From the IMG/VR virus record IMGVR_UViG_3300018412_000052, positions 1-23,705 of that record: 23,705 nt of DNA; one strand, given 5' to 3'. Both the position numbers and the translations under genes were made by a program. This document shows, piece by piece, positions 189-22,956 of this stretch (its first letter is position 1; every line of letters begins with the position of its first letter). This DNA is from a virus. The notes beneath the pieces are model-generated. The model did no database searches, had not been told where the DNA came from, and was given only the letters and a program-made list of their open reading frames with translations.

Positions 189-217
189 TTGACAAGTTAT
201 GGAAGAAGTGTTATACT
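189..217 (+). promoter_or_regulatory. Late-operon promoter, extended -10 type
   Basis: TTGACA (189-194), 17-bp spacer, TATACT (212-217), with the extended -10 dinucleotide TG at 209-210. Transcription should start near 223-224. It is the strongest promoter upstream of the virion genes. It matches the promoter at 22688-22716 at 30 of 37 positions counted from TTGACA, well beyond the hexamers, so both were probably copied from one ancestor or serve the same polymerase form. Confidence 0.85.
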
Positions 218-222
218 TATCT

Positions 223-515
223 TTGTTAAGTACTTGAAGTACGTAAAGTACTTAAAGAACGTGTAATAACGTTAAGTACGTTAAAGAACGTTAAGTACAC
301 CTACTAAATGTGCTAAAGCACCTTAATTAACTTCTAACGAAGTCAATTGATTAAAACAATAACTTCTTGCACATCAAGAAAATAACTTATAACTTATCTT
401 TCGTGTTTATAACACGTCTTGTAGAGTACTTCTAAGTACTTGTATTATACTTCTAGTCTACGTTAATCACACGTTTATTATACATAGTTTCCAAACATTT
501 AGGAGGTTTGCTGAT
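223..515 (+). ncRNA. Structured leader of the late operon (module copy A): array of stem-loops
   Basis: The ~290 bases between the promoter and the first gene hold no ORF but a string of hairpins: TTAAGTACTT/AAGTACTTAA (226-235/246-255) right at the predicted 5' end; GTGTA-TAACGTT pairing with AACGTTA-TACAC (261-273/287-300); GTGC-TAAA-GCAC (310-321); ACTTC-TAAC-GAAGT (330-343); ATTG/CAAT (346-360); TTCTTG-CACAT-CAAGAA (364-380); CGTGTT-TAT-AACACG (402-416); AGTACTT/AAGTACT (425-440). It also has a 10-bp direct repeat CGTTAAGTAC (270-279, 289-298). Segments 243-259 and 402-421 recur identically in the module at 22721-22956. A role as leader RNA (antitermination, RNA stability or a processed small RNA) is inference. 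Confidence 0.55.
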
Positions 516-905
516 TTGAATATTTTAGAAACTGTTGGACTTGTTTTCATCAACGTCGTTTCCACGTTAATCGTTGTGTACGGTATCGACATGGTGCGTA
601 AAGCATTCAAGACTGTTGGTGCAACACTTGCAAAAACTGCCGAGTTACGTGAAGACTCCCAATCAATTAATCATTCCTTTGATGCGAAAGAACTTACGGA
701 GTACGAGAGAGAATGTCTTCAACGTGACGTTGATTTCGACAATCGTATCCTACGCATGAAAGAAGAAATAGCAATGCAGACTTACAAAGTGCCAAACGCA
801 CAACACGGTGTGGTTGCCGAAGAACTTGACCCTATGATTAAAAATCTTCCACACAACTCCGTTAAAACAAAATATGACGTATCAGTTGATGAAGTTGCCG
901 AATAA
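516..905 (+). CDS. Small membrane-anchored protein of unknown function
   Basis: First gene of the late operon, 129 residues. The start is TTG at 516, chosen because AGGAGG (501-506) lies nine bases upstream; no ATG is better placed. Residues 5-25 form one hydrophobic segment, probably a membrane anchor. The remainder is charged and largely helical (many E, D, K, R around residues 40-85) and would face the cytoplasm or periphery. I recognise no family. It sits just ahead of the terminase genes, a place where phages often carry small accessory proteins, but this does not identify a role. Confidence 0.75.
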   Translation: MNILETVGLVFINVVSTLIVVYGIDMVRKAFKTVGATLAKTAELREDSQSINHSFDAKELTEYERECLQRDVDFDNRILRMKEEIAMQTYKVPNAQHGVVAEELDPMIKNLPHNSVKTKYDVSVDEVAE

Positions 906-921
906 CGTGAGGATGGTGCAC

Positions 922-1119
922 ATGGAACATATTGATAAAGCAGTACTTGGATTTCTTGCCGATGTACTCTACATAAAGAAAATTATATGCTTTGAAGAAT
1001 TTGAAGACATTTGTCAAGTTAAGACTTCTTGTGATTTGGAGAAGATTACCGACAAGATGTTGAAGGAGGAATACAATGTCTACAAACAAGGAGAAAGCTA
1101 CTTACGATATGCCAAGTGA
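922..1119 (+). CDS. Small helical protein of unknown function
   Basis: 65 residues. Start ATG 922 is chosen because GTGAGG (907-912) lies nine bases upstream; the frame is open further upstream (to 874) but that would run into the end of the preceding gene. The protein is rich in E, D, K and I with two cysteines near the middle, and looks helical. Its last 44 bases overlap the start of the small terminase gene in another frame, and the ribosome binding site of that gene lies inside this one, so translation of the two may be coupled. No family recognised. Confidence 0.65.
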   Translation: MEHIDKAVLGFLADVLYIKKIICFEEFEDICQVKTSCDLEKITDKMLKEEYNVYKQGESYLRYAK

Positions 1120-1594
1120 TGTAGTTGAAGAAGAATTTGAAGTAACAGCAATTCAAGCACTTCCACCCAAGATGCAGAGATTTATTCACCTGTACATGAC
1201 TGGTCAGTACACTATTAACAAGCTTGCACAACTCCTGGAAGTACACCCCAACACTTTGAGTAATTGGTTGAAGAAACAGGAAGTAAGAGACATTATCAAC
1301 GACATGCAACAGACTACACACGAGATTGTAGGCATACAGTTGAAGTCACTTACACTACAGGCGGTAAACAAGCTTGGTGCACTTACAGAGTCTCCCATAG
1401 ACGGTGTAGCGTTGCAAGCAGTTAAAGATATTCTTGATAGGGCAGGACATAAGCCTAAACAGGAAATCAAGATTGATAAGACCGTCAAAACCTTTGAACA
1501 AAAACTATACGACCTCATTGAAGTTACTGTTGAGGACAAGACAAAAGAGAGTAATGCAGAAGAGGTGGTAAGTATTGAGTCAACAGATGAATAA
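1076..1594 (+). CDS. terS: Terminase small subunit
   Basis: 172 residues; ATG 1076 follows AAGGAGG (1062-1068). An N-terminal helix-turn-helix of terminase/transposase type is visible at about residues 45-68 (INKLAQLLEVHPNTLSNWLK). A central helical part with LQAVKDILDRAGHKPKQ (about 114-130) is typical of phage small terminases that bind the packaging site and assemble as a ring on the large subunit. The acidic tail (residues 145-172) overlaps the next gene by 20 bases. Position directly before the large terminase supports the call. Expected role: recognise phage DNA and present it to the packaging motor. Confidence 0.85.
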   Translation: MSTNKEKATYDMPSDVVEEEFEVTAIQALPPKMQRFIHLYMTGQYTINKLAQLLEVHPNTLSNWLKKQEVRDIINDMQQTTHEIVGIQLKSLTLQAVNKLGALTESPIDGVALQAVKDILDRAGHKPKQEIKIDKTVKTFEQKLYDLIEVTVEDKTKESNAEEVVSIESTDE

Positions 1595-3329
1595 AGAACA
1601 GCTTTTCTACTGGAAGTTGCAAAACGACAAACCGTGGTACATAGAAAACTTTTTGAAGATTAGAGATAAGAAATCTCAACTTGTTCCCTTTAAGCTTAAC
1701 ACCGCACAAAATAAAGTAATGGACCTCATCAAACAGTGTGAAGAAACTGGTAAGCTTAAACGCTTCATCATTCTCAAAGCACGTCAGATGGGGTTGAGTA
1801 CGGTGTTCGAGGGACTCATCTTCCACGACACATCAACAAACTCATTTAAAAATTCCTTCATCATCGCACATGAGGACAAAGCAACGCAGAACTTGTTTGC
1901 AATGAGTAAGTTGTTCTATGATGAGATACCAGAGGTAATACGACCAATGGTAAAGTACTCTAATGAGAAAGCGTTAGTGTTTGAAAATCCTTCTAATGAT
2001 TTGAAAGAGAAAAAAGAGAACCCTGGTCTTCGTTCCAGAATTACTGTAGCAACAGCAGGAACAACGGAAGCAGGGCGTTCTGCTACCATTCATAATCTTC
2101 ACGCATCAGAGGTAGCTTTTTTTCCAGATGCAAGGACAACAATGCTTGGTTTGTTACAGTCTGTTCCAGACGAAATGAATACGTTGGTTGTACTTGAAAG
2201 CACCGCCAATGGTGTTGGTGATTATTTTCATAGCATGTGGCAGAAAGCAGTACGTGGGGAGAATGAGTTCATCCCTGTTTTTTTGCCGTGGTTCGTAGAC
2301 CCTGGTTATACACGTCCCTTCCGTTCAGAAGCAGAAAAACAACAGTTGTCTGATGAGATTAACACCATCAGCACTGACACAAGCGGTAACAAGGTGCACA
2401 CCTACGAGTACGACTTGATGGAGAAACAAAACCTTACCTTGGAACAGATGAATTGGCGTAGATATACTGTAGCCAACAAATGTCAAGGTGACGAAGAACT
2501 CTTCATGCAGGAGTACCCAAGTACGCCAGAGGAAGCTTTCATATCAACTGGTAGACCTAAGTTTACCATCAAATCACTTAAGAAATATCAAACCATTACC
2601 AAAGAACCTCAACGTGGTTACATAATGCCAGACCCTAACGGAAACATGACGTTTGTACCAGATGAAGGTGGGTATGTTGCCATATGGAAAGAACCAGAAC
2701 CAGACACGTTTTATTGTATTGGCGCTGATGTTGCAGAGGGACTTGTAGAAGGTGACTACTCTGTAGCTGTAGTTGGCGACCCAAATACTTTTGATGTGAC
2801 AGCTATTTGGTATGGTCATATTGACCCCGATTTGTTTGGCGTTGAATTGATAAAACTTGCCAAATATTATAACGATGCTTACCTTGGTGTTGAAAACAAC
2901 AACCATGGTCTTACAACACTTTCTACCATCAAGAAGAACGAATACTGGAATTTGTTTTTTTCCAAATCTTATGATAGAATATCAGATACGATGACACAAA
3001 AGCTTGGTTGGACAACCTCTGTACGTACTAAGCCATTTATGATAGACAAGCTTTCCGAGTTTGTACGTGAAATGTATCTTGGTATTTATAGTGATTTGAT
3101 TATCTCCGAAATGTTCACTTACGTCATTGAAGATAATGGTAAAACAAATGCACAACCTGGGTGTCACGATGACACTGTTATGGCAACCGCCATACTCTTA
3201 CAACTTATGCTAGAAGGGAAAGGTGAGTATTACGTTCCAGAAATTCCGATTGAGGACAGAGGTAAAGTCCACAGAGACATTATCGACCCTCTGTTTGAAC
3301 AACAAGAAGACAATGAATATTCTGATTAG
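1575..3329 (+). CDS. terL: Terminase large subunit (packaging ATPase and nuclease)
   Basis: 584 residues. TTG 1575 is chosen because GAGGTGG (1562-1568) is six bases upstream; ATG 1587 is the alternative. The ATPase half shows Walker A KARQMGLST (68-76), a Walker B-like segment LHASEVAFF (175-183), and the coupling motif ESTANG (208-213). The RNase H-fold nuclease half shows GADVAEG (383-389, Asp385), GVENNNHG (438-445, Glu440) and CHDD (530-533), the three acidic clusters that bind metal in this family. It would cleave concatemeric DNA and drive it into the prohead through the portal encoded next. Length is usual for the family and all key motifs are present. Confidence 0.97.
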   Translation: MSQQMNKEQLFYWKLQNDKPWYIENFLKIRDKKSQLVPFKLNTAQNKVMDLIKQCEETGKLKRFIILKARQMGLSTVFEGLIFHDTSTNSFKNSFIIAHEDKATQNLFAMSKLFYDEIPEVIRPMVKYSNEKALVFENPSNDLKEKKENPGLRSRITVATAGTTEAGRSATIHNLHASEVAFFPDARTTMLGLLQSVPDEMNTLVVLESTANGVGDYFHSMWQKAVRGENEFIPVFLPWFVDPGYTRPFRSEAEKQQLSDEINTISTDTSGNKVHTYEYDLMEKQNLTLEQMNWRRYTVANKCQGDEELFMQEYPSTPEEAFISTGRPKFTIKSLKKYQTITKEPQRGYIMPDPNGNMTFVPDEGGYVAIWKEPEPDTFYCIGADVAEGLVEGDYSVAVVGDPNTFDVTAIWYGHIDPDLFGVELIKLAKYYNDAYLGVENNNHGLTTLSTIKKNEYWNLFFSKSYDRISDTMTQKLGWTTSVRTKPFMIDKLSEFVREMYLGIYSDLIISEMFTYVIEDNGKTNAQPGCHDDTVMATAILLQLMLEGKGEYYVPEIPIEDRGKVHRDIIDPLFEQQEDNEYSD

Positions 3330-3340
3330 GAGGTGTTATT

Positions 3341-5365
3341 TTGAGTGATAAAACTGCAACACGTTATGAAGAACAGAAATTAGCAAGCGAATGGAACTTT
3401 AAGTTTAAAGATGCCATGATAAATAAAGCACCGTACACTAAGCGTTGGTCTACATATCAAGATGCTTATAACGGTGATTATTTTAAAAGCAAAAACTTGC
3501 CAGAGTACAAGTCAAACCTTGTAAGTAATTATATTTTCTCCATTATCGAAACAATTAGACCTATTATGTTAGATAATAACCCAAAATTCCAATCTATGCC
3601 TAGACAGCCAGAAGGTTTGGCGTTTAGCAACGACTTGCAGGAAGCGTTGATGTACGAGTGGGACAGAGAGAATATGAGTCAAAAACTCTACAAAGAGTTG
3701 GTAAATACCCTTGTGTTTGGCACATCAATATTCTTTTTGCCTTGGGATAGTAACGAAAAATGTGTTCATGCAATCCCTGTTAACCCGTTTAATGTGTTTC
3801 CAGACCCACTTGCTACAAGTATTGAAGATGCAGAGTACATTATCTACGCATCATATAAGAATGTTTCACAGCTTAAGCGTTTTTTTCCAGATAAGACTGA
3901 TTTACTTAGCGGTGGTAATATAAACTACAGTGAGTTGGTACAGGACAAGGATAGAAATGCAAGAATTGACAATCAAGTCCTTGTACTTGAAGTATGGACC
4001 AGAAATTATGAAACAGATGAAAAGGTTAAAGGCGATGAAAAGCACTATGTTTACAAATATCCAAACGGTAGGGTAATTACGCTTTGTCCAGAGTTGGGTA
4101 TTGTACTTAACGACAAGCCAAACCCTTACAAAGATGGTAGCTTTCCCTTTGTACTCATCAAAGATTATGATTTGCCAGACAAGTTTTGGGGAGAGGGAGA
4201 AGTTACACAATTACTTTCACCTCAAAAACATATGAACGATTTGAACAATGCTGTTATTGACAGCGCAAAAGCTACTGCAAACATGCCTTGGATAATCGAT
4301 AAGAACTCTGGTATTGGGTACGGCAAGATTACTGCACGTCCTGGGTTGGTTATTCGTAAAAACCCTGGTTCAGAAGTAAGACGTGACCAACCACCATCAA
4401 TGCCACTGTACGTTGTTAACGCTATTGAAACTTATAAGAGTGATATTGAACAGATAAGTGGTATTTATAACACACTCAAAGGTGACAGTGCTACTGGTGT
4501 ATATACTGCACAAGGTATTCTTGCATTACAGGAAGCAGGGCAGGTCCGCATCAGATTAAAGGTAAAATTACTTGAAGACTCTCTTGGTAAAGTTGCAGAG
4601 TTGTGGTTTTCACGTATGAAACAGTTCTGGAAAGACGATAAGTGGTTGAGAATTACAAAACAAGATGGCAGTTATGATTTGAAGATGTTTACAAAAACTA
4701 TTCTTGAGTATGACTATGACATTAAAATTACCGCAGGTTCTACAATGCCTGTTAATCGTGGTGCAATGCTTGACCTCATGGTGAGGTTGGCACAGACACC
4801 TATGCCAGACGGACAACCACTTGTTGATAGAGAAGCTGTTGTTAATTATCTTCCAGAAGAGGTTAAATCTTCACTGCTTAGACGTATGTCTGGTAAACAG
4901 GACAACCTTGATGAGATTAAGAAAGTTATTGAACAACTTGGTCAGCAATTACAGGCTATTACGCAGGAGTCACAACAGAACGATGAACAGACTTTTGATG
5001 TTCTTGATGACATAACTTCATCAATCGAAGCAGTTAACAAACAAATTTTACAACTCAAGGCAGAACATGATAAAATTGAGAGTGAAAGACAAGCACAAGA
5101 CAAACAAGACCAAATCAAGAAGGAAGCTTATAACAAAGGTTTTGGTGATGCGGAAAGCATGTACTCCGAAGACGTTAGACCTGCTACAGAAAAACCAAGT
5201 GGAGAGTCGCAATCTTCACCTACTCCAACCGACGTGGAAGGTAGTCCAGAGGAAAGTTTAGAGTCACTTCCAGATGATATTCTTAGTGGTATTGAGAATA
5301 TGACTGATGAGGAATTAGACTTGTTGCTTCAACAAAATCCAGAGTTAATAGACTTAATTAAATAA
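3341..5365 (+). CDS. Portal protein
   Basis: 674 residues; TTG 3341 follows AGGAGGTG (3328-3335) with five bases between. The N-terminal two thirds have the portal pattern: a helical start with an aromatic-rich segment, an early helix (LVSNYIFSIIETIRPIM, about 64-80), VNPFNVFPDP near 147-156, and the long stem helices after LLSPQKHMNDLNNAVIDSAK. The last ~170 residues are charged and contain a long coiled coil and an acidic C-terminus rich in Asp and Leu. This length and position between large terminase and scaffold fit the ring-shaped head-tail connector of short-tailed phages, the channel for DNA entry and exit. The family call rests on pattern and gene order. Confidence 0.9.
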   Translation: MSDKTATRYEEQKLASEWNFKFKDAMINKAPYTKRWSTYQDAYNGDYFKSKNLPEYKSNLVSNYIFSIIETIRPIMLDNNPKFQSMPRQPEGLAFSNDLQEALMYEWDRENMSQKLYKELVNTLVFGTSIFFLPWDSNEKCVHAIPVNPFNVFPDPLATSIEDAEYIIYASYKNVSQLKRFFPDKTDLLSGGNINYSELVQDKDRNARIDNQVLVLEVWTRNYETDEKVKGDEKHYVYKYPNGRVITLCPELGIVLNDKPNPYKDGSFPFVLIKDYDLPDKFWGEGEVTQLLSPQKHMNDLNNAVIDSAKATANMPWIIDKNSGIGYGKITARPGLVIRKNPGSEVRRDQPPSMPLYVVNAIETYKSDIEQISGIYNTLKGDSATGVYTAQGILALQEAGQVRIRLKVKLLEDSLGKVAELWFSRMKQFWKDDKWLRITKQDGSYDLKMFTKTILEYDYDIKITAGSTMPVNRGAMLDLMVRLAQTPMPDGQPLVDREAVVNYLPEEVKSSLLRRMSGKQDNLDEIKKVIEQLGQQLQAITQESQQNDEQTFDVLDDITSSIEAVNKQILQLKAEHDKIESERQAQDKQDQIKKEAYNKGFGDAESMYSEDVRPATEKPSGESQSSPTPTDVEGSPEESLESLPDDILSGIENMTDEELDLLLQQNPELIDLIK

Positions 5366-5403
5366 TTGGAATAACCGTATAGGACTCCAAAGGGGGAAAA
5401 GTA

Positions 5404-6225
5404 ATGAATATTGACCAGTATCGTGAACTTAAAGCACAGGAGTCACAGGCGAGTCAGACAACTGAACAAACACCTGTTACTGCCACATCAACTGAAACTG
5501 TACCTGCTACTGCACCAGTAGTTGAAGCTACTGCACCTGCTGTTGAAACCACACCAATTGAGACTACACCAGAGGTTACACCTACTGCAACGTTACCAGA
5601 CAAGATTGCCATTGATGGCATCGGAGAAGTTAGTGTTGAAGAATTAAAGAATGGCTACTTGCGCCAGTCTGATTACACACGCAAGACTCAAGAAGTTTCA
5701 CGTAAGACAAAGGAAGTAGAAGAAGCTGTAGTTCTTTTTGAACATTTGAAACAGAACCCTCAACTCGCACAACAGTTGCTTCAAACAAAAGAACTTCCTG
5801 CAAATCTTGACCCAACGCAGACTAAAGTTTCAGAACTAGAAGAAAAGCTTTATGATATGATGCTTGAAAAAGAAATCGACTCGTTAAGTTCTAAGTATTC
5901 TGATTTTGAGGTTAAAGATGTACTTGAGATTGCACAGAAAAAAGGTATTACTAATTTGGAAGATGCGTACTTGCTTTCAAAATCTTACAAATCAACACAT
6001 CAGACAACCGATATTGAAAAGCTTAAAGAACAGATGAAGAAGGAAGTTATGGCTGAACTTGAACAGGAAAGAAAATCCACGCAGAGCATTATCTCGTCCA
6101 GAGGTGACTCTCCAATCGTTCAAACAAATGCACCAAAACTTTCTGATGCTGAACATAAAGTTGCTAAGATGATGAAGTTATCTGATGATGATTATATTAA
6201 ATGGCGTGATGTTTCACGTAATTAA
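5404..6225 (+). CDS. Scaffolding protein
   Basis: 273 residues; ATG 5404 follows AAAGGGGGAA. The first ~65 residues are a low-complexity Thr/Pro/Ala/Glu stretch. A short folded element, ELKNGYLRQSDYTRKTQEV (about 80-98), common in scaffold-type head proteins of Bacillota phages, is followed by a long coiled coil (about 95-225) and a basic/acidic C-terminal helix near 245-273. Such mostly helical, charged proteins placed between portal and capsid genes organise capsid subunits in the prohead and leave before maturation. No protease gene is seen in the block, so removal is probably by exit rather than cleavage. Confidence 0.85.
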   Translation: MNIDQYRELKAQESQASQTTEQTPVTATSTETVPATAPVVEATAPAVETTPIETTPEVTPTATLPDKIAIDGIGEVSVEELKNGYLRQSDYTRKTQEVSRKTKEVEEAVVLFEHLKQNPQLAQQLLQTKELPANLDPTQTKVSELEEKLYDMMLEKEIDSLSSKYSDFEVKDVLEIAQKKGITNLEDAYLLSKSYKSTHQTTDIEKLKEQMKKEVMAELEQERKSTQSIISSRGDSPIVQTNAPKLSDAEHKVAKMMKLSDDDYIKWRDVSRN

Positions 6226-6239
6226 AGGAGAGTGAAAAT

Positions 6240-7268
6240 ATGGAAAATTTACTTAAAATGTCTTTTGATTTGCAGATGTTTGCAACACCAGTTCAGCCAA
6301 CAGTAGATAATACTCTTGACTATACAACTACTGATAGAGATACAGGCACTAATTTTGGTAAGTTGCTTGAACCTGGTTTAAGAAAAATCTTTTTTGAAAC
6401 ATATGACGAATTACCAGAACAGTACAGTAAAATTTACAACATGAATACGTCTGACAAGGCGGTTGAACACGATTGGGGTATGGGTGCTTTCGGTGATTGG
6501 GACAAGAGGGCAAGTCAGTTTGATACTGTTGCTTATAAAACTTTGAGTCCTGGTCTTGAAAGAACTTACACACACGAAGCGTTCACGCAGGGCTTCATGG
6601 TTACAAGAGAAATGTATGATGACGAACAGTACAGACAGATGGAAAAGTTGCCTAAGGCAATGGCTCGTTCTGGACGTGCAAAGGTTGAGAAAGATGCAAT
6701 GCTTCCTCTTATCAATGGTTTCCTCGAAACTGTTCCTGGAACACCAGATTTCCCAATCTATGACGGCAAGTGTCTTTTCTCTGCAACACATCCACTCCTT
6801 GATGGAGGCGGTAAGGTTTGCAGTAATCTTGCAACAGGTCCACTTAGTGACATTAACTTAAAGAGTGCATTAAAGGTTATGAGAGAAACTCTTGACGAAG
6901 CAGGTAATCTTGCACAGTTTAGGGCAACAAAACTCATCATCCCTCCTGTACTTGAAGACACAGCAATCAGACTTTTACAGTCTACACAGATTGCAGGTGG
7001 TCAGTTAAATGACACAAATAAATTCCTTAACTCACATGGAATTGATATTGTTGTTCTTGATTACCTTGGCGCATCGGCAGGTGGTAGCGATACTGCTTGG
7101 TTCTTGCAGGATGGTAGCAGACACGAACTCAACTTCTTCTGGAGAGTTAAACCAGAGTTTAAGTGGGAAGAGGACTATGATACATTTGTAACCAAGTACA
7201 GAGGTTACATGAGATACTCATTCGGTGTTTCCGACTTTAGAGGTCTTGTTGGTTCTACTGGTTTATAG
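6240..7268 (+). CDS. Major capsid protein (HK97 fold expected)
   Basis: 342 residues; ATG 6240 follows AAAGGAGA (6224-6231). ATG at residue 7 (MSFDLQMFATP) is a possible alternative; the DLQMFA sequence is the usual N-terminal signature of capsid proteins in Bacillota phages (NLQLFA type). The body has the mixed alpha/beta composition of the HK97 fold, with a long spine-helix candidate near EMYDDEQYRQMEKLPKAMAR (about 123-142) and a C-terminal beta-rich end. It lies directly after the scaffold and is followed by a strong terminator, as expected for the most abundant virion protein. It would form the icosahedral shell. Confidence 0.92.
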   Translation: MENLLKMSFDLQMFATPVQPTVDNTLDYTTTDRDTGTNFGKLLEPGLRKIFFETYDELPEQYSKIYNMNTSDKAVEHDWGMGAFGDWDKRASQFDTVAYKTLSPGLERTYTHEAFTQGFMVTREMYDDEQYRQMEKLPKAMARSGRAKVEKDAMLPLINGFLETVPGTPDFPIYDGKCLFSATHPLLDGGGKVCSNLATGPLSDINLKSALKVMRETLDEAGNLAQFRATKLIIPPVLEDTAIRLLQSTQIAGGQLNDTNKFLNSHGIDIVVLDYLGASAGGSDTAWFLQDGSRHELNFFWRVKPEFKWEEDYDTFVTKYRGYMRYSFGVSDFRGLVGSTGL

Positions 7269-7286
7269 TCTAAGTTGAATAATTAA

Positions 7287-7320
7287 GGGGGAGTGGGATT
7301 TTTCCCTCTCTCCTTTTTTT
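7287..7320 (+). terminator. Rho-independent terminator after the capsid gene
   Basis: A G-rich arm (7287-7298) pairs with TCCCTCTCTCC (7303-7313) across a short T loop, with one T-T mismatch and one wobble, followed by seven T (7314-7320). No new promoter is evident before the next gene at 7338, so it must be leaky or be overridden. It would set a higher transcript dose for head genes than for tail genes. Confidence 0.8.
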
Positions 7321-7337
7321 AATATGGAGGGTTATAT

Positions 7338-7580
7338 ATGAAAAAGTTACCTAGTTTAGAAACACCACTTAACGCCAATGAAAGATATTTGTATGCTATT
7401 GCGATTAGAATGGATGCTATGTGTTCCATGATGGCTTCATTTATCGAATGTTATGCAAAAAAGAATGAAATAGCTACCACATCAGAAAAGATTGAAGAAA
7501 AGGTTTCTAACACCGAAGAAGTGGCAGAAACGGTAGTAGAAGTGGTAGAAGAGAAACCCAAAAGAACTCGTAAAAAATAA
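7338..7580 (+). CDS. Small head-associated protein of unknown function
   Basis: 80 residues; ATG 7338 follows ATGGAGGG. The N-terminal half is a helix rich in Met and Ala (about 10-40). The second half is a run of Glu and Val followed by the basic tail KPKRTRKK. Small proteins with an acidic middle and such a Lys/Arg tail are frequent just after the capsid gene in phages of this type. The function is not known to me; a minor head or DNA-contact protein would fit but is inference. Confidence 0.8.
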   Translation: MKKLPSLETPLNANERYLYAIAIRMDAMCSMMASFIECYAKKNEIATTSEKIEEKVSNTEEVAETVVEVVEEKPKRTRKK

Positions 7581-7593
7581 GGAGGTGTTGTAA

Positions 7594-8055: not shown

Positions 8056-8058
8056 GAC

Positions 8059-9834: not shown

Positions 9835-9839
9835 TATAG

Positions 9840-12055: not shown

Positions 12056-12083
12056 TGTTTTGTTATTAAAGGAGGTATTTAAT

Positions 12084-12562: not shown

Positions 12563-12571
12563 TGTTAAAAT

Positions 12572-12601
12572 AGAGGGGAGAAATCCCCTCTTACATCTTT
12601 T
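12572..12601 (+). terminator. Rho-independent terminator closing the structural block
   Basis: AGAGGGG (12572-12578) pairs with CCCCTCT (12585-12591) around a six-base loop, followed by a T-rich run TTACATCTTTT (12591-12601). It lies ten bases after the XkdX stop. Confidence 0.78.
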
Positions 12602-12626
12602 CAAATCACATAAAGTGTGATATAAT
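12598..12626 (+). promoter_or_regulatory. Promoter of the lysis/internal-protein block, extended -10 type
   Basis: TTTTCA (12598-12603), 17-bp spacer, TATAAT (12621-12626), with extended -10 TG at 12618-12619. The -35 box is made from the T-run of the terminator just upstream, so termination and re-initiation share bases. The expected start is near 12633, giving a short leader with the ribosome binding site AAGGAGG before 12660. Confidence 0.7.
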
Positions 12627-12659
12627 ATATTTAGAAAATAATGGTAAGGAGGTTACGTT

Positions 12660-13502: not shown

Positions 13503-13513
13503 GGGTGGTTATT

Positions 13514-13684: not shown

Positions 13685-13689
13685 TTAAT

Positions 13690-14361: not shown

Positions 14362-14374
14362 TGAGGTGATATAA

Positions 14375-15811
14375 ATGGCTGAACAACCTATGGTTATTCT
14401 TAGAAACATAGCAAATCAAGCAGGGCAGGACGTTGGTTGGGACAGTAACACTGGCAATGTTTCTGTAGGTGGTAGTTCTTACACTCCCAATCAATTAAAG
14501 AACATGGGTGGACAACTTGTTAGCGACCAGTGGGTAATGCCTAGTTACGTTGCAAACAACATGGTTAATTCCTCACCACAATCTGCACAACTTGCACAAC
14601 AAAAACAGCAAGGACAACTAAACGATATGTACTCTAGTATGGATGATATGTCTAGTGCTTATACACGACAACAGAAATCTAGTCTTGCAAGCGCACGTGA
14701 CAATCAACTTGCAGACTTAAAGAAAGCATACGCAACTGCCGTGTCTGATGGCGAGATTAGTATACGTGATGCAGAGGATGCTTTTGCTACCCAAGCAGAA
14801 CAGATTAATCAGCAAGCTTATCTTGATGCGGAACAGACTTCTCTGTACAGCCAAGACATGGGCATACAAAACTCACAACAGGCTGTTGGCTTACAACAGG
14901 GTGACAATGCACGAAAGAACTCCCTCATCAATACAAACATGACCACCAGAGATAAACGTGTGTCTGATATTCGTGACAGGCTTACTGCAATCAAAACGCA
15001 GAAGAACCTTGATGTGGCAAATGTTAATGCACAATACGATAGTGGCGTTGCACAAGCACAAGCTACTGCTGACCAGATGTACGCTACAAATATGTTTGGT
15101 TTACAGTCTAATAACTACTCTGCTGAACGTGACCAGAATTATGCACGTCAGAACATGAATTATCAAAATGATTTGGCACTTGGACAAATGTCGCAAGAAC
15201 AGCAATATGCACTTGAAAACATGTCAACTCAACAGAAATATGGTCTTGAACAAATGGCAAGAAGTCAAGAGTATAATGTTCAAAACATGAACCTTGAACA
15301 TGGGTTTGATGTTGAAAACATGGCTATGCAACTTAAGAATGACCTTACCAAGATGAATGTTTCGTTTGGTCAAAGTTCTGCATTACAAAGTCAGAGTGCT
15401 AAAAACTCTATGGACCAAACTGTTGCAAAATACGCACTCGAGGTAAAAGCAGAAGAAGATGCTTACCAAAAACAGCTTGAACGTGATAGACGTGGTTTAG
15501 ACCCAACATCAAAAGAGTACGAAGTTATTACTGGCAATGCTGAACGTGATTTGAAAAACAATATTGCAGAGATTGGCGTAAAGGCTTCATATCAATATGC
15601 TTTTGAAAATGCACTTAATACTTCCTCCGTTCCTTCTGTTAAACAGCCTAAAGATTGGTCAGAAGGTGGTACAAGTGGTTTTGGCGGTGTGTTGAACAAT
15701 CTTTCTGGTTATAGCGATAGGAACGCAAAGTATACTGCCGAACAGGATGATATTGCACGCAAGAAAGCAATTCTCAATGCCAATGAAAAGTACATGCCGT
15801 GGAGCAAATAA
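14375..15811 (+). CDS. Gln-rich helical protein with hendecad repeats, probable internal virion/ejection protein
   Basis: 478 residues; ATG 14375 follows GAGGTGAT. The N-terminus (about 5-45) has VILRNIANQAGQDVGWDSN followed by VSVGG, which resembles the copper-amine-oxidase N-terminal-like (stalk) domain pattern of Gram-positive surface proteins. Residues 75-250 are a Gln/Ala-rich helical region. Residues 250-326 hold seven 11-residue units (A or M at position 1, mostly Tyr/Phe at position 7 in the best units). A further helical part and a Gly-rich C-terminus (about 425-450) follow. Between the endolysin and the giant protein, and with no membrane span, it fits an internal protein ejected with DNA, as T7 gp15-type proteins are, although I see no homology to them. 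Confidence 0.7.
   Translation: MAEQPMVILRNIANQAGQDVGWDSNTGNVSVGGSSYTPNQLKNMGGQLVSDQWVMPSYVANNMVNSSPQSAQLAQQKQQGQLNDMYSSMDDMSSAYTRQQKSSLASARDNQLADLKKAYATAVSDGEISIRDAEDAFATQAEQINQQAYLDAEQTSLYSQDMGIQNSQQAVGLQQGDNARKNSLINTNMTTRDKRVSDIRDRLTAIKTQKNLDVANVNAQYDSGVAQAQATADQMYATNMFGLQSNNYSAERDQNYARQNMNYQNDLALGQMSQEQQYALENMSTQQKYGLEQMARSQEYNVQNMNLEHGFDVENMAMQLKNDLTKMNVSFGQSSALQSQSAKNSMDQTVAKYALEVKAEEDAYQKQLERDRRGLDPTSKEYEVITGNAERDLKNNIAEIGVKASYQYAFENALNTSSVPSVKQPKDWSEGGTSGFGGVLNNLSGYSDRNAKYTAEQDDIARKKAILNANEKYMPWSK
15122..15352 (+). repeat. Seven tandem 33-base units coding an 11-residue repeat
   Basis: Residues 250-326 of the overlapping gene divide into seven 11-residue units, for example MSQEQQYALEN, MSTQQKYGLEQ, MARSQEYNVQN and MNLEHGFDVEN. 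Met occupies position 1 in six units and starts the next segment too (Met 261, 272, 283, 294, 305, 316, 327). Positions 7, 9 and 11 favour Tyr/Phe, Leu/Val and Asn/Gln. The DNA units have diverged, so the pattern is held at protein level. Confidence 0.75.
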
Positions 15812-15831
15812 AATAAGGTAGGTGATGTTTG

Positions 15832-18800
15832 ATGTTTAATGTAAAAGACTATAGTTACAAAAGTATAATTAACAGAAACAACACGTCCTTTGGTTCTGAC
15901 TTGGACGATGAGATTGCAGAAATCCTAAGTAGGACGATTGTTCCAACAAACACCACCTACCACTCAACTGCAAAGAAGCGTTCTGGTGTTAAGCAGTTTT
16001 TTGATGCGTTGTCCATAGGAAATTACGCCACAGCAGGTCTTGTAAGAGGTTTGTTGCCAAACAACGATATAAGTGTTGGCGAAGGTGTGCTTGGCGGTAT
16101 ACGTGCTTCTGTGCCCTTTATGAGTAACTACGAAGAAGGTAAGCATACATACTCTGATGTGCTTGGTGATTTGGGTTGGAAACCTACAACCACTGGTGGT
16201 AAAATCGCTAGAGGTGCTGTTGGTTTTCTTGGTGATGTGTTCCTTGACCCTACCACGTACCTCTCTGGTGGTTTAAGTGCACTCTTTAAAGGTAGCGGTA
16301 AGGCAGGTATAACAACGGCACATAAGACTGCTACTGCATTGGAACTGGCTAAGGAGTTTGGTATTAAGGCAAGTGATGACATCGTGGAGAAGTTGCCTGG
16401 TGAAGTATTTGATGCGGTTGTTAGAAAGTATGCTACAAAGCCAAACATCAGTAAGGAACTTGTTGAACGTCTTGCAATGAAAAAGGCTGACGATGTTGTA
16501 CGTATTCTTGACAAAGTTCCAGAAGGTATGTCAAGTGAGTTGGCTGAAAAGATTGTTGTTAATAGTAACAAAGCAAAAGGCATTACACTTGGTGCAGACG
16601 ATTTAGCACGTGAAACAGAACACCTTACCAAATCATATAATAAGGCTATCGGTTTAAACACTACAGCCATTGACAGAACACTTAGCCTTGGCAATGCGCC
16701 ATTCGGTAAATTCTTATTTCGTGACTTGGCTGATAAGTCAACTACTGTCGTTACTGCTGACACTCTTAAAAAGATTGGTGATAAGACGCTTGCCCCACAA
16801 TATGCAAAACTCCGCAGTACGTTCTACGGAAGTAAGTTGGGCGACCTTTTCTCTACTAAGAGCACCCTCTTTAAGTTAAGCAAAACAAATCCAGGAGATT
16901 TTTATGACTTCTTAAAGTCTGCCGAAAGAATGAAGACTATTACTAAAAATACACAACTACTTCAAAAGTCCATCACTGAAAAAGGTAAGGCGTTTAATCT
17001 TACACCAGACGAAACACGTGAAGTAATAGAGTTGATGGAAGACGAAAGTAAGTGGGTTCAAGTTAAGAAGGCTATGAAGTTTTCTGATATGGAAGAAGCT
17101 AAAGTGTTTAAAGCCAAAATTCTTGAACGTCAAGCAAAAACTCAATCACAACTTGATGAATTACTTGAAACCAAGAAAAGCATTGATATGCTAAGTGAAG
17201 CTAACGATGCAAAGCTTGTTGATGCGGGTGATACGCTTAAAGCGATGCGTGAAGATTATACCAACAAGTTAACCTCCTTGAAGACCTCTCACATCACTGA
17301 ACAATCTAAACTTCAAGACCTTATCAAATCATATACTGACGAATTGGACAATCTTAAACTTGACGAAGAACTCCTTATTAAAAACAATGGTATCTCCACT
17401 GACAGTATTATTAAGTCATATGATGACTACAAATCTGCTGTTTCTTCTGATGTGGCAAATCCCTTTGCGAAGCTGAAAGTTGTTGAAGATGTTTCTACTT
17501 ACTTATTTGGCAGACCAGACTACATAACCTCTTCCTTGTGGGATGCACATTTTGATAAAGTTGCCAACATGATTAAAAACGGTGATGATAAGGCAAAGAT
17601 TGTTGATTATGTTGAGAAGAACTCTGAATATTTCTTTTCTGGACGTGCACAAACTGTTTATCCTTTTATTGGCGAAAAGCTTGGATATGGTAAAGGTAAG
17701 ATATTTGAGAATTGGAATGAAATGTATTACGACCGTATTAAGCACATCAATGAAAAGGTTGCAAAAGCTGAACCACTTACCGTTAAAGATGAACAGCTTC
17801 TTGCTGAACTCCAAAGTGTAAAAATGCAACGTGATGGCTGGTTACAGAAATTCCGTAATCAAGACAGCATGGAAGGTGTAATGAAGATTATTTCCGAAGA
17901 TAAGAACAAAGAAATGTTTGACGATTATGAGAAGTATAAGCACATGGCTAACACTACTTCAACTAGGGTTTCTGAAAGAACTGCAAGTGAACTTGCTGAA
18001 CAGCGTAAAATATTCAACGATTACGCTTCTCCACAGAATAAAATTCCAGATAAAATTGAAGCATCTGGAAAACTTCTTACATCAAAAAACAAGCTTACTG
18101 TCCTTGATGATTTGTTTGAGAGGACTTTTATCACTCTTCCAGATTTTGACCCTAACAATATAAAACCAAGTTATCTACGTTACACAAATGCTGTTGCTGA
18201 TGAAGTTGAACCACTTCTTGAAAATTTCTTTAAACTTGACTTTGACAATCTTTCACCAAAACAAAAAGAATTACTTTATAGTATGGCTATTGGCAACGCC
18301 AACAAACGTATGGATGGTGCAAAGGTTTTTGGTGCTGTTGGTGATGCTGAACGTAAAGCACTTGTTAAAGAAGCTGAATTGAGAAAAGCTAACCTTCGTA
18401 CAAGTATGCTTGCAGATAGAACAAAAATTGGTTCTACTGTACAGTTTAAAAATGGTGATGAAGTTGTTGAAGGTGTCGTTAAGTCTGTTGATTTTAACGA
18501 TGATGCGAAAGGTCTTTTGACTGTTGTTAAGAATGATGGAGGTGTTGTTGGCAAAGTTGGTGTCGACCAACTCACATCAGTTAAGATTAATTCAAAGCTT
18601 TTATCTGCCGATGAAATCGTTAAACTTTCAAACATTTCTGATGATTTTGTTACTAGTCAAAAGGAACTTACTTCCCTTCTTGATGTGAAAACTTCCGATT
18701 TATCCAAACTTGATGATGAGTTTAAAACATCTTATAAGAGTATTCTTGAGAATTATAAACAGCGTTCCACTGATGTTACTAACCAAATCAAAGAATTGTA

Positions 18801-21800
18801 TGTTAACAGTGAAGATTTATCAAAAGCATTCTCCACTGACAACTTGGCAAAAATAGACGAATTGACCAACAAAGTAATGCACGCTGATGAAGTCTTGGCA
18901 AACGATGATGCATTTGAAACCTTTATGCGTTCTTGGATTGGTGATGGCAAGGTTGAAGATATTATTGATAAGAACGCCCCACGTACAGCAGAATTTATGC
19001 TTGACTCTGACTTAGGTGTTAGTGAGAAAGTTGCAAAGATTGCACAACAACTTCGTAATGATTTTATTGAAATTGGTAAAAGCGAAGTTAATATTGGTCA
19101 GCTTAACGTGGGACAGCTTGATGAAATGATGGATAGATATTTGCCCCACGTTCTCACTGATGAAGGTAAAAAGTTATTCAATGACTCCGAAGAGTTTCAA
19201 CAACATCTTTCAAAACTTGATATAGAGTTTAACAACTTCTCAATGGAAAGAACTATTAAGCGCATTCCAGATGGAAATGGTGGGTACATTGACAATCCAA
19301 ATGTTACTCAAATCAATAAATACTTTAGTGAAAAGTTTGGTGATGTGTTAAAAGGTAAGAATGCTTTCGTAGACGATGTGTCTGACATTTATATTACACG
19401 TGCATTGAAGAACACTAGATTACTGTATGACGACAAATTCTCTCACGAGATTGTTGATACGTTCAGTAAAGACTATACAAGTGAACTTAGTGAAGGTTAT
19501 AATATAGTCATGAACCCTGTAAATTATCGCAATACTTCATCTGATGTGGCACAACTTAACGTGTCTATGGAGATAAGCAACGCTGTTTCCGATTACCTTC
19601 GTAGTGACGATGTTATTAAAAGTATCGAAGATGCTGTACGTGCAGAACTTGGTTCAAGTGTTGTTACCAAGGAACAAAACCTTGTTTACAAAAAGTTGTT
19701 TGGTGACAAAATGGGTGCTTATGCAAAGGACTTTATTGGTAAGAACTTTCCAGACAGTGTTAGAAGAAATATGTTTGAAAGTGAGTTAAAGGCGTTCAAT
19801 ACAACTTCTACTGTAGGTGGAACGCTTGATGACTTATCGACACCTATAATTAAGTTTAACGATGCGAATGTTGAAAGTTTAAATCGTGTGATTGACGAAA
19901 CCAAAGAACAATACATTAGCAGTATTCGCACCAAACTTATCAACTATGAGAAAACAAAATACTTCGAGTCTTATGGTAAAAAAATGCCAGAAGAGTTGTT
20001 AAATCGCTTTCATAACTATGCTTTAGATGATGTTGTTCGACACATCGACAATGCACGTAATGTTGCCGATGAGGTTGATTTACAAAAGCTTGACCGTATC
20101 TCCAAGAACATCGACACGTTAAACAATTTTAGAAATCCAGAAATTAAGCAAATGAACAGTGCAATTATTGACAAAGCAAATCAAGCAAGGCTTTTACAGA
20201 TACAGAAAGATAACAGTAGGTTTTTACAGATTTATGATAAGTTCACCCACTTTATTAAGATTAACCAAACATCCGTCTTACCTTCTTTCCACGCTAGAAA
20301 TAAGATGTCCAATACATTTAACAACTGGCTTGAGGTTGGTGCTGATGCGGTTGATGTTGACTTTCAGCGTACAGCCTTTCGTGCAATCAAGAACAAAGGT
20401 AACGTTGATGGTGTACTTAAAATAACAAATGCTGATGGTAGTGTTGGCATGATTGGTTGGGACGACTTATACAAGATTGCAGAGGAAAAAGGTGTTATAG
20501 GTGAAGGTTTCTTTGCTAAAGAGATTGCAGGCGATGCCACATCAAAAGGTTTGTTCAAGAAACTTCCTGCCCACCTTGACCCTACCGACACCAAGAACTT
20601 TAAGCCTTACAAGGTTGGTACTAGCATTGGTAGCACAATAGAGGACCAGGATAGACTTATTCACTTTGCTTCACAAGTAAGTCGTGGAATGAGTTATGAT
20701 GAAGCTTCTGAAAGTGTTACAAAGTTCCTATTTGATTATTCTGATTTGACAGCTTTTGAACAGACTGTAATGAAGCGTATCATTCCCTACTACACGTGGA
20801 TGCGAAAGAACTCTGCGTTGCAATTAGAAATGATGATGGAACATCCAGAGAAATACCGCTATGTGTCAAAGGTTGTTGGTGGTGTAGAGGGAATGGTTGA
20901 TGAGAATGACCGTATCAACAGAGATTATGTTAATGACTTTGCCAAGGATTGGGTACAGACACCGTTTAGTGTTACAAACCCAGAAGGTCGTACTGAAACC
21001 GTTTTGTGGAATACTGGCTTGCCATACATGGACATTAGTAAGATACCAAATCCACTTGACCCTGTTGGTAGTGTAAAGAACATCTTCTCCCAAACAAATC
21101 CGTTAATCAAACTTCCTGTTGAACAGATGCTTAATAAAAATACTTTCTTTGACTCACCAATTGTTGAGGAAGGTGGAAACCAACTTACAAGTCGTGCAGA
21201 CCACATTCTTTCCCAACTTGCATTGTACAACACTGGAAAAGACCTTGCAACAAAACGTGGTGCAGACTTAGGACTTCAAGTTTTAAACAATACAACTGGT
21301 GTCAAACTGCTTTCGTATGATTACGATATGTACAAGGCGATGAAAATACAAAAGATGATTGACGATGGTACTTTCTATGATAGAGATACCATTGGTGAGA
21401 AGGCTGTCAAAGGCACTGGTGCTGTTCTTCTTGGTGCAGGTGGTATTGTTGTGGATGGAGTTACACATGCGTTCTCCAAGGCTGTTAACTCTGTTGCAGA
21501 TAGTGCAAACAAAGACAAGCCACTTGGTGCTGATGAGTACACTGGTGCATTTAGACCTATAAGCCAATCTAAGTATGAAAAGCTTTCTGATAAGGACAAA
21601 GCACGTTACAATCCTCCCACATCAGAAGAAGCTATTGCATATAACAAAAAGGCTGTTGAACTTGAACAACTCCAACTTGAAAAAAGTGGTGTTGCAAAGA
21701 AATTCATCTGGTCCTTGTTTGACAAGTTTAACCTTGGTGAAAGAAATAAGGAATATAAACTTGGTGAAATTGTCACTGTTACAGATGGCGATACGTTTAA

Positions 21801-22230
21801 AATTAAGATTGGTAATGAAACAAAGAGTGTCAGAATGCTTTTGATTGATACGCCAGAAACAGTCGACCCACGTGTTGATGAACCTATGCCTTATGGCAAA
21901 GAAGCAAGCAACCACAGCAAGTCTCACTTCCTTGGACAAGATGCAAAGATTTACTTTGATGGGGAAGAAACTGACAAGTACGGCAGACTTCTTGGTTATG
22001 TTGAAATTGATGGCACTGACATGAATAATGAGTTACTTAAAGAAGGACTTGCACAAACTAGGTATCTTTACGAGCCACCTTATGATAGGCTTGATAAATA
22101 TAATGCAACAGAAAAAGAAGCGTATAATCAAAAGAAAGGATTGTGGTCACTCGATGGTTATGCGACTCCAAATCAAGACGATGGTTACAACATGAATTAT
22201 CTTGATGCGATAGGTCGTAAGTTAAAGTAA
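15832..22230 (+). CDS. Giant virion protein (2132 aa) with a C-terminal staphylococcal-nuclease domain
   Basis: ATG 15832 is chosen over the TTG at 15829 because the AGGTAGGTGAT site fits it better. The N-terminus has a Gly-rich hydrophobic part (KIARGAVGFLGDVFLDPTTY, about 124-143). Long coiled coils follow (for example about 424-520 and 960-1010), then a small SH3-like beta segment (about 866-918) and the segment IPYYTWMRKNSALQLEMM (about 1651-1668) found in large virion proteins of Bacillota phages. There is a Gly/Val-rich hydrophobic stretch near 1861-1880. Residues ~1974-2107 are an SNase domain: VTDGDTF (Asp1987), VRMLL (Arg2001), IDTPE (Asp2006, Thr2007, Glu2009), YGRLLGY (Arg2052) and a GLWS end, matching Asp21, Arg35, Asp40, Thr41, Glu43 and Arg87 of staphylococcal nuclease. 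Likely an internal protein delivered at infection; the nuclease could act on host or competitor DNA. Confidence 0.85.
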   Translation: MFNVKDYSYKSIINRNNTSFGSDLDDEIAEILSRTIVPTNTTYHSTAKKRSGVKQFFDALSIGNYATAGLVRGLLPNNDISVGEGVLGGIRASVPFMSNYEEGKHTYSDVLGDLGWKPTTTGGKIARGAVGFLGDVFLDPTTYLSGGLSALFKGSGKAGITTAHKTATALELAKEFGIKASDDIVEKLPGEVFDAVVRKYATKPNISKELVERLAMKKADDVVRILDKVPEGMSSELAEKIVVNSNKAKGITLGADDLARETEHLTKSYNKAIGLNTTAIDRTLSLGNAPFGKFLFRDLADKSTTVVTADTLKKIGDKTLAPQYAKLRSTFYGSKLGDLFSTKSTLFKLSKTNPGDFYDFLKSAERMKTITKNTQLLQKSITEKGKAFNLTPDETREVIELMEDESKWVQVKKAMKFSDMEEAKVFKAKILERQAKTQSQLDELLETKKSIDMLSEANDAKLVDAGDTLKAMREDYTNKLTSLKTSHITEQSKLQDLIKSYTDELDNLKLDEELLIKNNGISTDSIIKSYDDYKSAVSSDVANPFAKLKVVEDVSTYLFGRPDYITSSLWDAHFDKVANMIKNGDDKAKIVDYVEKNSEYFFSGRAQTVYPFIGEKLGYGKGKIFENWNEMYYDRIKHINEKVAKAEPLTVKDEQLLAELQSVKMQRDGWLQKFRNQDSMEGVMKIISEDKNKEMFDDYEKYKHMANTTSTRVSERTASELAEQRKIFNDYASPQNKIPDKIEASGKLLTSKNKLTVLDDLFERTFITLPDFDPNNIKPSYLRYTNAVADEVEPLLENFFKLDFDNLSPKQKELLYSMAIGNANKRMDGAKVFGAVGDAERKALVKEAELRKANLRTSMLADRTKIGSTVQFKNGDEVVEGVVKSVDFNDDAKGLLTVVKNDGGVVGKVGVDQLTSVKINSKLLSADEIVKLSNISDDFVTSQKELTSLLDVKTSDLSKLDDEFKTSYKSILENYKQRSTDVTNQIKELYVNSEDLSKAFSTDNLAKIDELTNKVMHADEVLANDDAFETFMRSWIGDGKVEDIIDKNAPRTAEFMLDSDLGVSEKVAKIAQQLRNDFIEIGKSEVNIGQLNVGQLDEMMDRYLPHVLTDEGKKLFNDSEEFQQHLSKLDIEFNNFSMERTIKRIPDGNGGYIDNPNVTQINKYFSEKFGDVLKGKNAFVDDVSDIYITRALKNTRLLYDDKFSHEIVDTFSKDYTSELSEGYNIVMNPVNYRNTSSDVAQLNVSMEISNAVSDYLRSDDVIKSIEDAVRAELGSSVVTKEQNLVYKKLFGDKMGAYAKDFIGKNFPDSVRRNMFESELKAFNTTSTVGGTLDDLSTPIIKFNDANVESLNRVIDETKEQYISSIRTKLINYEKTKYFESYGKKMPEELLNRFHNYALDDVVRHIDNARNVADEVDLQKLDRISKNIDTLNNFRNPEIKQMNSAIIDKANQARLLQIQKDNSRFLQIYDKFTHFIKINQTSVLPSFHARNKMSNTFNNWLEVGADAVDVDFQRTAFRAIKNKGNVDGVLKITNADGSVGMIGWDDLYKIAEEKGVIGEGFFAKEIAGDATSKGLFKKLPAHLDPTDTKNFKPYKVGTSIGSTIEDQDRLIHFASQVSRGMSYDEASESVTKFLFDYSDLTAFEQTVMKRIIPYYTWMRKNSALQLEMMMEHPEKYRYVSKVVGGVEGMVDENDRINRDYVNDFAKDWVQTPFSVTNPEGRTETVLWNTGLPYMDISKIPNPLDPVGSVKNIFSQTNPLIKLPVEQMLNKNTFFDSPIVEEGGNQLTSRADHILSQLALYNTGKDLATKRGADLGLQVLNNTTGVKLLSYDYDMYKAMKIQKMIDDGTFYDRDTIGEKAVKGTGAVLLGAGGIVVDGVTHAFSKAVNSVADSANKDKPLGADEYTGAFRPISQSKYEKLSDKDKARYNPPTSEEAIAYNKKAVELEQLQLEKSGVAKKFIWSLFDKFNLGERNKEYKLGEIVTVTDGDTFKIKIGNETKSVRMLLIDTPETVDPRVDEPMPYGKEASNHSKSHFLGQDAKIYFDGEETDKYGRLLGYVEIDGTDMNNELLKEGLAQTRYLYEPPYDRLDKYNATEKEAYNQKKGLWSLDGYATPNQDDGYNMNYLDAIGRKLK

Positions 22231-22245
22231 TTGGAGGTGTTGCAC

Positions 22246-22467
22246 ATGGAAGAATTTATTCTTGGGTTGGCTGAAAAAAGCATACTTGGTGCTGGGTTCT
22301 TCTACCTGCTTCACTATCTTGTCAAGAACATGGAAGGCATCACCGTAAACCTAACTAGCTTTGGTGAGGTATTACATAAAGTGTCCGACACGTTGCTTAA
22401 GATTGACATGAGAGTTGAACAGTTAGAACAGAAAATTAAAGACTTAGAAAGGAGGGGAGAAATATGA
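22246..22467 (+). CDS. Holin-like protein (UviB/BhlA type)
   Basis: 73 residues. ATG 22246 follows TTGGAGGTG (22231-22239); the in-frame TTG 22231 is inside that ribosome binding site and is rejected. One hydrophobic helix (ILGLAEKSILGAGFFYLLHYL, about 5-25) is followed by an amphipathic, coiled-coil C-terminus (VEQLEQKIKDLERR, about 57-70). This is the usual layout of BhlA/UviB holin-like proteins: an N-terminal span and a charged cytoplasmic tail. It would form membrane lesions that release the endolysin. It overlaps the next gene by four bases (ATGA). Confidence 0.75.
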   Translation: MEEFILGLAEKSILGAGFFYLLHYLVKNMEGITVNLTSFGEVLHKVSDTLLKIDMRVEQLEQKIKDLERRGEI

Positions 22468-22646
22468 AAGACTACAAAACATTAATTGCACCAATCGTGG
22501 CAGTAATTGCTATAGTGCTACAGTTAGTGTTAAAAATTGATTTACCACAACAGTTACAATCTGATTTGGTAGCTTCTCTTGCAAATCTCATTGCTGTAGG
22601 TGCAGTGCTGTACGGTATCATTAAAAACCATTTCACACAAAAGTAG
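22464..22646 (+). CDS. Small two-span phage holin
   Basis: 60 residues; ATG 22464 overlaps the previous stop, with GGAGGGGAGA just upstream. Two hydrophobic helices, LIAPIVAVIAIVLQLVL (about 7-23) and LVASLANLIAVGAVLYGII (about 35-53), are separated by a polar link containing DLPQQLQSD, and the C-terminus is short and basic. This matches the short class II-like holins of Gram-positive phages, where a Pro-containing polar loop separates two spans. It is the last gene of the late operon. With the preceding gene it forms a holin pair, one of which may act as a regulator. Confidence 0.78.
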   Translation: MKDYKTLIAPIVAVIAIVLQLVLKIDLPQQLQSDLVASLANLIAVGAVLYGIIKNHFTQK

Positions 22647-22648
22647 AT

Positions 22649-22694
22649 TTGTCAAGGAAAAAACTTTCAATTATGAAAATAAATGTCTTGACAA
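22649..22694. repeat. Nested inverted repeat overlapping the -35 box of the second promoter
   Basis: TTGTCAAG (22649-22656) is the exact complement of CTTGACAA (22687-22694), which contains the -35 TTGACA. Inside lies TTTCA-ATTA-TGAAA (22665-22678). As DNA it could be an operator covering the promoter; as RNA in read-through late mRNA it could fold into two stacked stems. Confidence 0.45.
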
Positions 22695-22716
22695 GTTTTA
22701 CAAGAAATGTTATAAT
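22688..22716 (+). promoter_or_regulatory. Consensus promoter, extended -10 type, of module copy B
   Basis: TTGACA (22688-22693), exact 17-bp spacer, TATAAT (22711-22716), with TG at 22708-22709. Both hexamers are perfect. Transcription would begin near 22722. The match to the promoter at 189-217 extends over TTGACAAGTT, AAGAA, TGTTATA and TCTTT. No ORF follows on this strand before the terminator at 22929, so it should make a short non-coding RNA of about 235 nt. Confidence 0.85.
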
Positions 22717-22720
22717 TGTC

Positions 22721-22956
22721 TTTAGAAGGTTTATTACTTCTAAATAACGTGTAAAGTACTTAAAGAAATAAAGAAAAAAGATTAAAAGCAAATGCCGTAA
22801 GGCATTTAAAGGTTTCTTTGAAACCTTTTGATTAACTTGAAAATCTTCTTCACATCACAAAAGAACTTGTTGCTTATTTCACGTGTTTATAACACGTCTT
22901 GCAGAAGTACTTTAACAACATAATAAATAAGACCTCACTTTGATGTGGGGTCTTTT
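22721..22956 (+). ncRNA. Candidate structured small RNA (module copy B)
   Basis: From the predicted start to the terminator there is no ORF but a series of stem-loops: TTTAGAAG/CTTCTAAA (22721-22728/22737-22744) at the 5' end; AAATGCC-GTAA-GGCATTT (22790-22807); AAAGGTTTC-TTT-GAAACCTTT (22808-22828); GATT/AATC (22830-22845); TTCTT/AAGAA around CACATCA (22846-22865); ACGTGTT-TAT-AACACGT (22881-22897); then the terminator. GTAAAGTACTTAAAGAA (22751-22767) and CGTGTTTATAACACGTCTTG (22882-22901) are identical to 243-259 and 402-421 in the late leader, in the same order and at similar distance from the promoter. The function is unknown; a stand-alone regulatory RNA is the simplest reading. Confidence 0.6.

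Follow-up and report, generated by a model that had tools for sequence, protein, structure and literature searches.

A promoter-linked hairpin array ahead of a phage late operon and its gene-less second copy at the late/early junction

The late operon and its two control regions

We analyzed a 23,705-bp stretch of DNA (the window), which is the entire linear IMG/VR fragment IMGVR_UViG_3300018412_000052 and derives from a tailed phage of low-GC type. Its late genes are ordered as TerS, TerL, portal, scaffold, capsid, collagen-like tail fibre, amidase endolysin and a 2133-aa protein; two small hydrophobic ORFs follow, and then RusA on the opposite strand. Copy A, the control region at 189-515, stands ahead of these 22 kb of genes, as the initial annotation had described. 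The 2133-aa protein (15829-22230) carries a staphylococcal-nuclease (SNase) domain at its C-terminal end, and an RNA polymerase domain was not found in it. Its homologues in related phages measure roughly 1840 to 2450 aa, with those of G007 and G025 containing stop codons within the matched stretch.

Relatives were then collected. A megablast search of INPHARED showed no DNA relatives of the window, and the 2133-aa protein retrieved no close relatives from IMG/VR. TerL and TerS searches yielded about 30 related IMG/VR contigs with TerL identities of 60-76%, and two MAG contigs were also related. The order orf1-orf2-TerS-TerL was kept across the relatives, and neither orf1 nor orf2 matched a Pfam family above the cut-off. 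GATC occurred 0 times in the window against 141 expected on both strands and was also missing in G017, G002, G022 and G023; CGCG and GGCC were likewise absent from the window. This absence is strong restriction-site avoidance.

The second control region, copy B, is located at 22688-22956 (Table 1). The A and B promoters were identical at 30 of 38 positions, both having TTGACA, a spacer of 17 and TG before the −10 element, with predicted transcript starts near 222 and 22721, respectively. Two identical blocks of 17 nt (243 and 22751) and 20 nt (402 and 22882) occurred in the same order in both copies and were the only exact words of at least 11 nt in common. The global alignment of A and B scored 93, compared to 37 (sd 5) for dinucleotide shuffles; when the promoters were removed, the leaders still scored 74, compared to 31 (sd 4) for shuffles with a maximum of 54. 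The resemblance proposed in the initial annotation was thus confirmed as real. Stem-loops at both predicted transcript 5′ ends and the shared CGTGTT-TAT-AACACG hairpin were also found as claimed. The claimed CTTCTT..AGAA hairpin, however, formed well in A only; in B it was weak and missing from the minimum-energy fold. The fold z-score was −2.6 for A and −5.2 for B with its terminator included, the latter value being due in part to that terminator. Copy B ended in this terminator without coding, its longest ORF having 31 codons and no ribosome-binding site, in agreement with the earlier description.

Table 1. Positions of the features in copy A, the late operon and copy B.
Feature	Position	Strand	Remarks
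Promoter A, TTGACA-17-TATACT, extended −10	189-217	+	11/12; drives the late operon
A 5′-end stem-loop	226-255	+	fold; at predicted transcript start
A 17-nt block	243-259	+	exact identity with 22751-22767
A small hairpin, GUGC-UAAA-GCAC	310-321	+	
A hairpin, ACUUC-UAAC-GAAGU	324-350	+	cUAACg is a signature loop of the family
A hairpin, CTTCTTG-CACAT-CAAGAA	363-380	+	contains heptamer CACATCA, found genome-wide
A 20-nt block with CGTGTT-TAT-AACACG hairpin	402-421	+	exact identity with 22882-22901
RBS AGGAGG of first late gene	501-506	+	sequence
orf1, first late gene	516-905	+	129 aa; hydrophobic N-terminal stretch; no family
Terminator-like hairpin and U tract within late operon	7286-7309	+	computed; just past capsid gene
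Second internal terminator-like hairpin (12572-12591), then promoter-like site (12598-12626, extended −10)	12572-12626	+	computed
Promoter B, TTGACA-17-TATAAT, extended −10	22688-22716	+	12/12
B 5′-end stem-loop	22723-22743	+	fold; at predicted transcript start
B outer stem, 5′ arm (UAAAGUACUU / AAGUACUUUA)	22752-22761	+	10 bp with 22905-22914; encloses hairpins
B hairpin 1, AAAUGCC-GUAA-GGCAUUU	22790-22807	+	
B hairpin 2, AAAGGUUUC-UUU-GAAACCUUU	22808-22828	+	adjoins hairpin 1; in best R1/R2 match, 22810-22868
B hairpin 3, ACGUGUU-UAU-AACACGU	22881-22897	+	common to A
B outer stem, 3′ arm	22905-22914	+	
Bidirectional terminator, late/early junction	22929-22954	+	predicted; closes B and the late operon

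Hairpin leaders in the related phages

Next, we compared 20 leaders, namely A, B and those of 18 related phage or MAG contigs. Nearly all contigs covering the start of the late operon had one strong promoter and, after it, a leader that measured roughly 160-400 nt and exceeded this length in a few. In most relatives the element stood ahead of orf1-orf2-TerS-TerL, with the promoter 0.7-2.5 kb upstream of TerL; copy A occupies this position between late promoter and first genes, and copy B does not. The 20 leaders contained 43 perfect tight hairpins (stem of at least 6, loop of 3-5), compared to 6.4 in shuffles (sd 2.3, maximum 13), and the coding control gave 0.43 per 240-nt window. Upstream control regions also held hairpins above the level of coding DNA (15 in 17). 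Hairpins were few or absent in the leaders of G017, L023, L108 and L017, and the leader of G003 was only ~60 nt and without hairpins. A hairpin lay within a few nucleotides of the predicted start in A, B and many relatives (G007, G012, G017, L012 and L014), and two abutting hairpins close to the promoter were observed in B (22790-22828), L012, L014, L015, L021 and L132. The G023 leader was present at both contig ends (L095 54-108 and L097 6455-6509), so its 46.5-kb record probably has ends that overlap and is complete.

Loops closed by C-G were biased in sequence. On the transcribed strand, UUC was observed 11 times and UAAC 4 times, compared to once each in the reverse sense (15 vs 2, P 0.002); in coding regions 1 of 71 such hairpins had a UUC loop, and in upstream DNA none had either loop. 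This bias on the transcribed strand points to RNA rather than DNA. The initial annotation had suggested that stems differ while hairpins persist, and this pattern was recovered in the relatives, where the similarity of the leaders extended beyond the promoters and the stems covaried. In a covariance alignment of eight phages, which was fitted to structure, 6 of 7 stem pairs had changed on both sides, with all cells paired and none broken, and its covariation score was matched by 0 of 500 shuffles. A four-sequence MAFFT alignment that predated any model showed the same both-sided stem changes.

Two covariance models spanning a short core only, R1 from four other phages and R2 from eight, were built without the window and searched against all positions on both of its strands. 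Both ranked copy B first. With R1, B scored 19 bits (E 0.11) and A was second at 12.4 bits (E 1.6); with R2, B scored 24.1 bits (E 0.027), the next match 11.2 bits, and A was fifth at 9.9 bits, the CACATCA/CAAATCA part of the models being inflated by a heptamer that is abundant genome-wide. B thus appears as the more typical family member, and A belongs to the family mainly by its position and its cUAACg hairpin. The hairpin excess, the loop bias, the covariation and the ranking of B by window-free models together support selection on leader shape, providing good evidence that the leader is a shape-selected element at the RNA level.

No named RNA family accounts for this layout, as had been proposed. 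An Rfam 15 cmscan of A gave no match at E up to 5, EAR and phi29 pRNA included; that of B gave only sub-threshold, unrelated families at chance level, and eight relatives gave none at E up to 1. The exact 20-nt block was not found elsewhere in IMG/VR. Hence, of the earlier reading, the relatedness of the two modules, the shape selection on leader hairpins and the absence of a named family stood.

The heptamer itself was considered separately. C[AGT]CATCA and CAAATCA (in reverse, TGATGNG and TGATTTG) were 4-6 times over-represented on both strands throughout the phage group. Against a second-order Markov expectation with counts pooled over the group, CAAATCA occurred 357 times (90 expected), CACATCA 262 (53), CTCATCA 222 (42) and CGCATCA 109 (19). 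The excess was found in all frames on the coding strand and was sharply bounded; single-base neighbours were mostly near 1. The window, G002, G003, G005, G007, G012, G017, G022, G023, G025, L014 and others were rich in it; the outgroup G027 did not have it as an enriched word, and it was not enriched in most outgroup phages or in the Mollicutes MAG holding one relative. The heptamer may be a Chi-like or protein-binding site. Present in 12 of 20 leaders, CACATCA/CAAATCA had been considered an RNA motif specific to leaders and was downgraded because of this genome-wide over-representation; being so common, CACATCA is weak evidence for an RNA motif, and that part of the likeness between A and B is not RNA-specific.

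The late/early junction and copy B

The late/early junctions of G007, G025, G017, G012 and L146 contained a terminator only and no copy of B, and the late end of L147 reads likewise. Thus, B appears to be an extra copy specific to the lineage of the window and outside the conserved system, judging from these sequences. In L144 (IMGVR_UViG_3300047309_000214, 3926-5026, reverse), a strong junction promoter led into a terminator within about 85 nt without any gene; further on, a second promoter-like site was followed by another terminator, and one segment of the unit was CU-rich, resembling anti-Shine-Dalgarno RNA. The L144 junction promoter shared 22 and 20 of 38 positions with the A and B promoters, compared to the 30 shared by A and B. 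The L144 and G003 records overlap by 322 bp at their ends, so the two probably represent one 44-kb phage. The non-coding units of B and L144 suggest that the junction may tolerate, or make use of, small non-coding units.

Pairing partners for these RNAs were also sought. An attenuator, in which CACATCA would pair with TGATGTG of the B terminator, was rejected as not clearly above shuffles (P 0.08), and among the relatives only L131 and G022 approached P 0.02-0.04 for pairing of this type. In the L131 leader (1080-1230), CAAATCA/TGATTTG lies in both arms of a long terminator, with a further copy just upstream, an arrangement that permits mutually exclusive pairing (P 0.04). B as an antisense RNA to ribosome-binding sites of the window was rejected as well (P 0.18, no better than shuffles). 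The duplex of A with B was better than shuffles (P 0.01).

Possible modes of action

Position, hairpins, loop bias and covariation place A and B together in a family of hairpin-array RNAs that are linked to promoters and specific to this clade. A forms the 5′ leader of the late operon, which covers the virion and lysis genes, and would act in cis on its own transcript. Elongation is the likeliest target: by analogy with put, EAR and conAn, we infer that the nascent hairpins of A could help RNA polymerase past terminators inside the operon. Candidate terminators are listed in Table 1; others were computed near the capsid-adjacent site in G007 and G012 and further downstream in G017. In G017, L108, L014, L023 and, weakly, G022, such hairpins were also predicted after the promoter and ahead of the first gene. 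Protection of the 5′ end of the long mRNA is a near rival that could be combined with antitermination, and the most likely role of A would be one or the other. The most likely product of copy B is a separate, structured RNA of ~235 nt whose 3′ end would lie at the terminator shared with the late operon, as suggested by the promoter, structure and terminator of B and its lack of a gene. Taken as a whole, the explanation in which A acts in cis on elongation and B is a free RNA of this family has, in our estimate, a probability of about 0.5.

Known systems offer several comparisons. The put elements of phage HK022, which lie downstream of PL and PR and act over 10 kb, are two stem-loops of about 70 nt (PMC9378689). 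Compared by description, A and B are like putL and putR in being two related leader RNAs of one phage genome, with adjacent stem-loops behind strong promoters and, in A as in put, a long operon downstream (PMC9378689). However, put belongs to a lambdoid coliphage, in which PL and PR are early promoters and both copies lead into genes, whereas here A leads into late genes and B into a terminator. EAR is an RNA-only processive antitermination element in exopolysaccharide operons of Bacillales, which are low-GC Gram-positives, and conAn of plasmid pLS20 is a system whose RNA element, conAn2, stands at the head of a long mobile-element operon containing numerous internal terminators (PMC8955417). 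Like EAR, the present element is a candidate RNA element of a long operon, but A and B have no Rfam match. The conAn system also requires the protein ConAn1, and no counterpart was identified here. In phage lambda, a promoter, short leader and terminator at pR′ produce a small phage RNA, the 6S RNA. Lambda 6S arises by termination within the late operon's own leader, whereas B lies at the far end of the operon and faces convergent genes. The early region of G012 (L092 681-1280) encodes a 199-aa protein that has a CXXCXG zinc finger and weakly matches a Q-like antitermination family; it was found only in G012 and near-identical contigs, with a partial match in G017. An early-gene protein antiterminator was rejected as an explanation, because this single weak match in G012 was all that was seen.

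The other readings differ in what they leave unexplained. That the leader hairpins are simply a 5′ stabiliser of the mRNA against a 5′ exonuclease of the RNase J type, with B a stable by-product, is possible though doubtful; it is a close rival because many leaders start with a hairpin, and their UUC, UAAC and GUAA loops are of very stable kinds, yet it needs neither several hairpins nor the shared 3′ block and does not account for the terminators between promoter and first gene. That the inverted repeats act instead as DNA, either as regulator operators or as extruded hairpins like the promoters of the N4 virion RNA polymerase, is the least probable of all. Inverted repeats, including cGAAg loops, do occur in the upstream control regions, and G.U and A.C mismatches are equal in near-perfect stems (4 and 5). 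Against this, the UUC/UAAC bias is limited to the transcribed strand within leaders, and the stems vary between phages, unlike operators; N4-like hairpin promoters were rejected, as the giant protein shows an SNase domain only.

Concerning copy B, a functionless relic, duplication or import, or merely a promoter firing against early-operon read-through at the convergent junction, is a tenable alternative, if a less than even one. Its absence from five relatives fits this, as does the closer match of the A and B promoters to each other than to the unrelated junction promoter of L144. Nevertheless, the promoter of B is still perfect and its hairpins and outer stem have all been retained, even though its stems are unlike those of A; it outscores A in the R2 family model, which is not expected of a decaying copy; and the same junction in L144 holds a non-coding promoter-terminator unit that is independent of B. 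It is unlikely that B works in trans, either by titrating a factor that binds leader A or by base-pairing with phage mRNAs: the shared blocks, the common hairpin order and the self-complementary hairpins that allow A:B pairing are consistent with such a role, but palindromes present in both copies would be expected to give this duplex, pairing of B to ribosome-binding sites did not exceed shuffles, and B is not conserved. As a free RNA of the hairpin-array family, B might arise as a by-product or serve as a decoy for the factor that binds A; should the element antiterminate, B could also send antisense transcripts into the convergent early genes. An RNA decoy of an antitermination element, in which the gene-less copy is fired from a promoter as strong as that of A and competes with the leader for a shared elongation or RNA-binding factor, thereby timing the late genes, is a still less probable candidate.

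In phages that lack cultured hosts, control of the late operon has received little attention. A hairpin-array leader whose loops are kept while its stems are exchanged is a concrete candidate for an RNA that controls a 22-kb operon; comparing such leaders also exposed a DNA heptamer over-represented across the clade. The second, probably free copy in one phage offers a natural test of whether such elements act only in cis.
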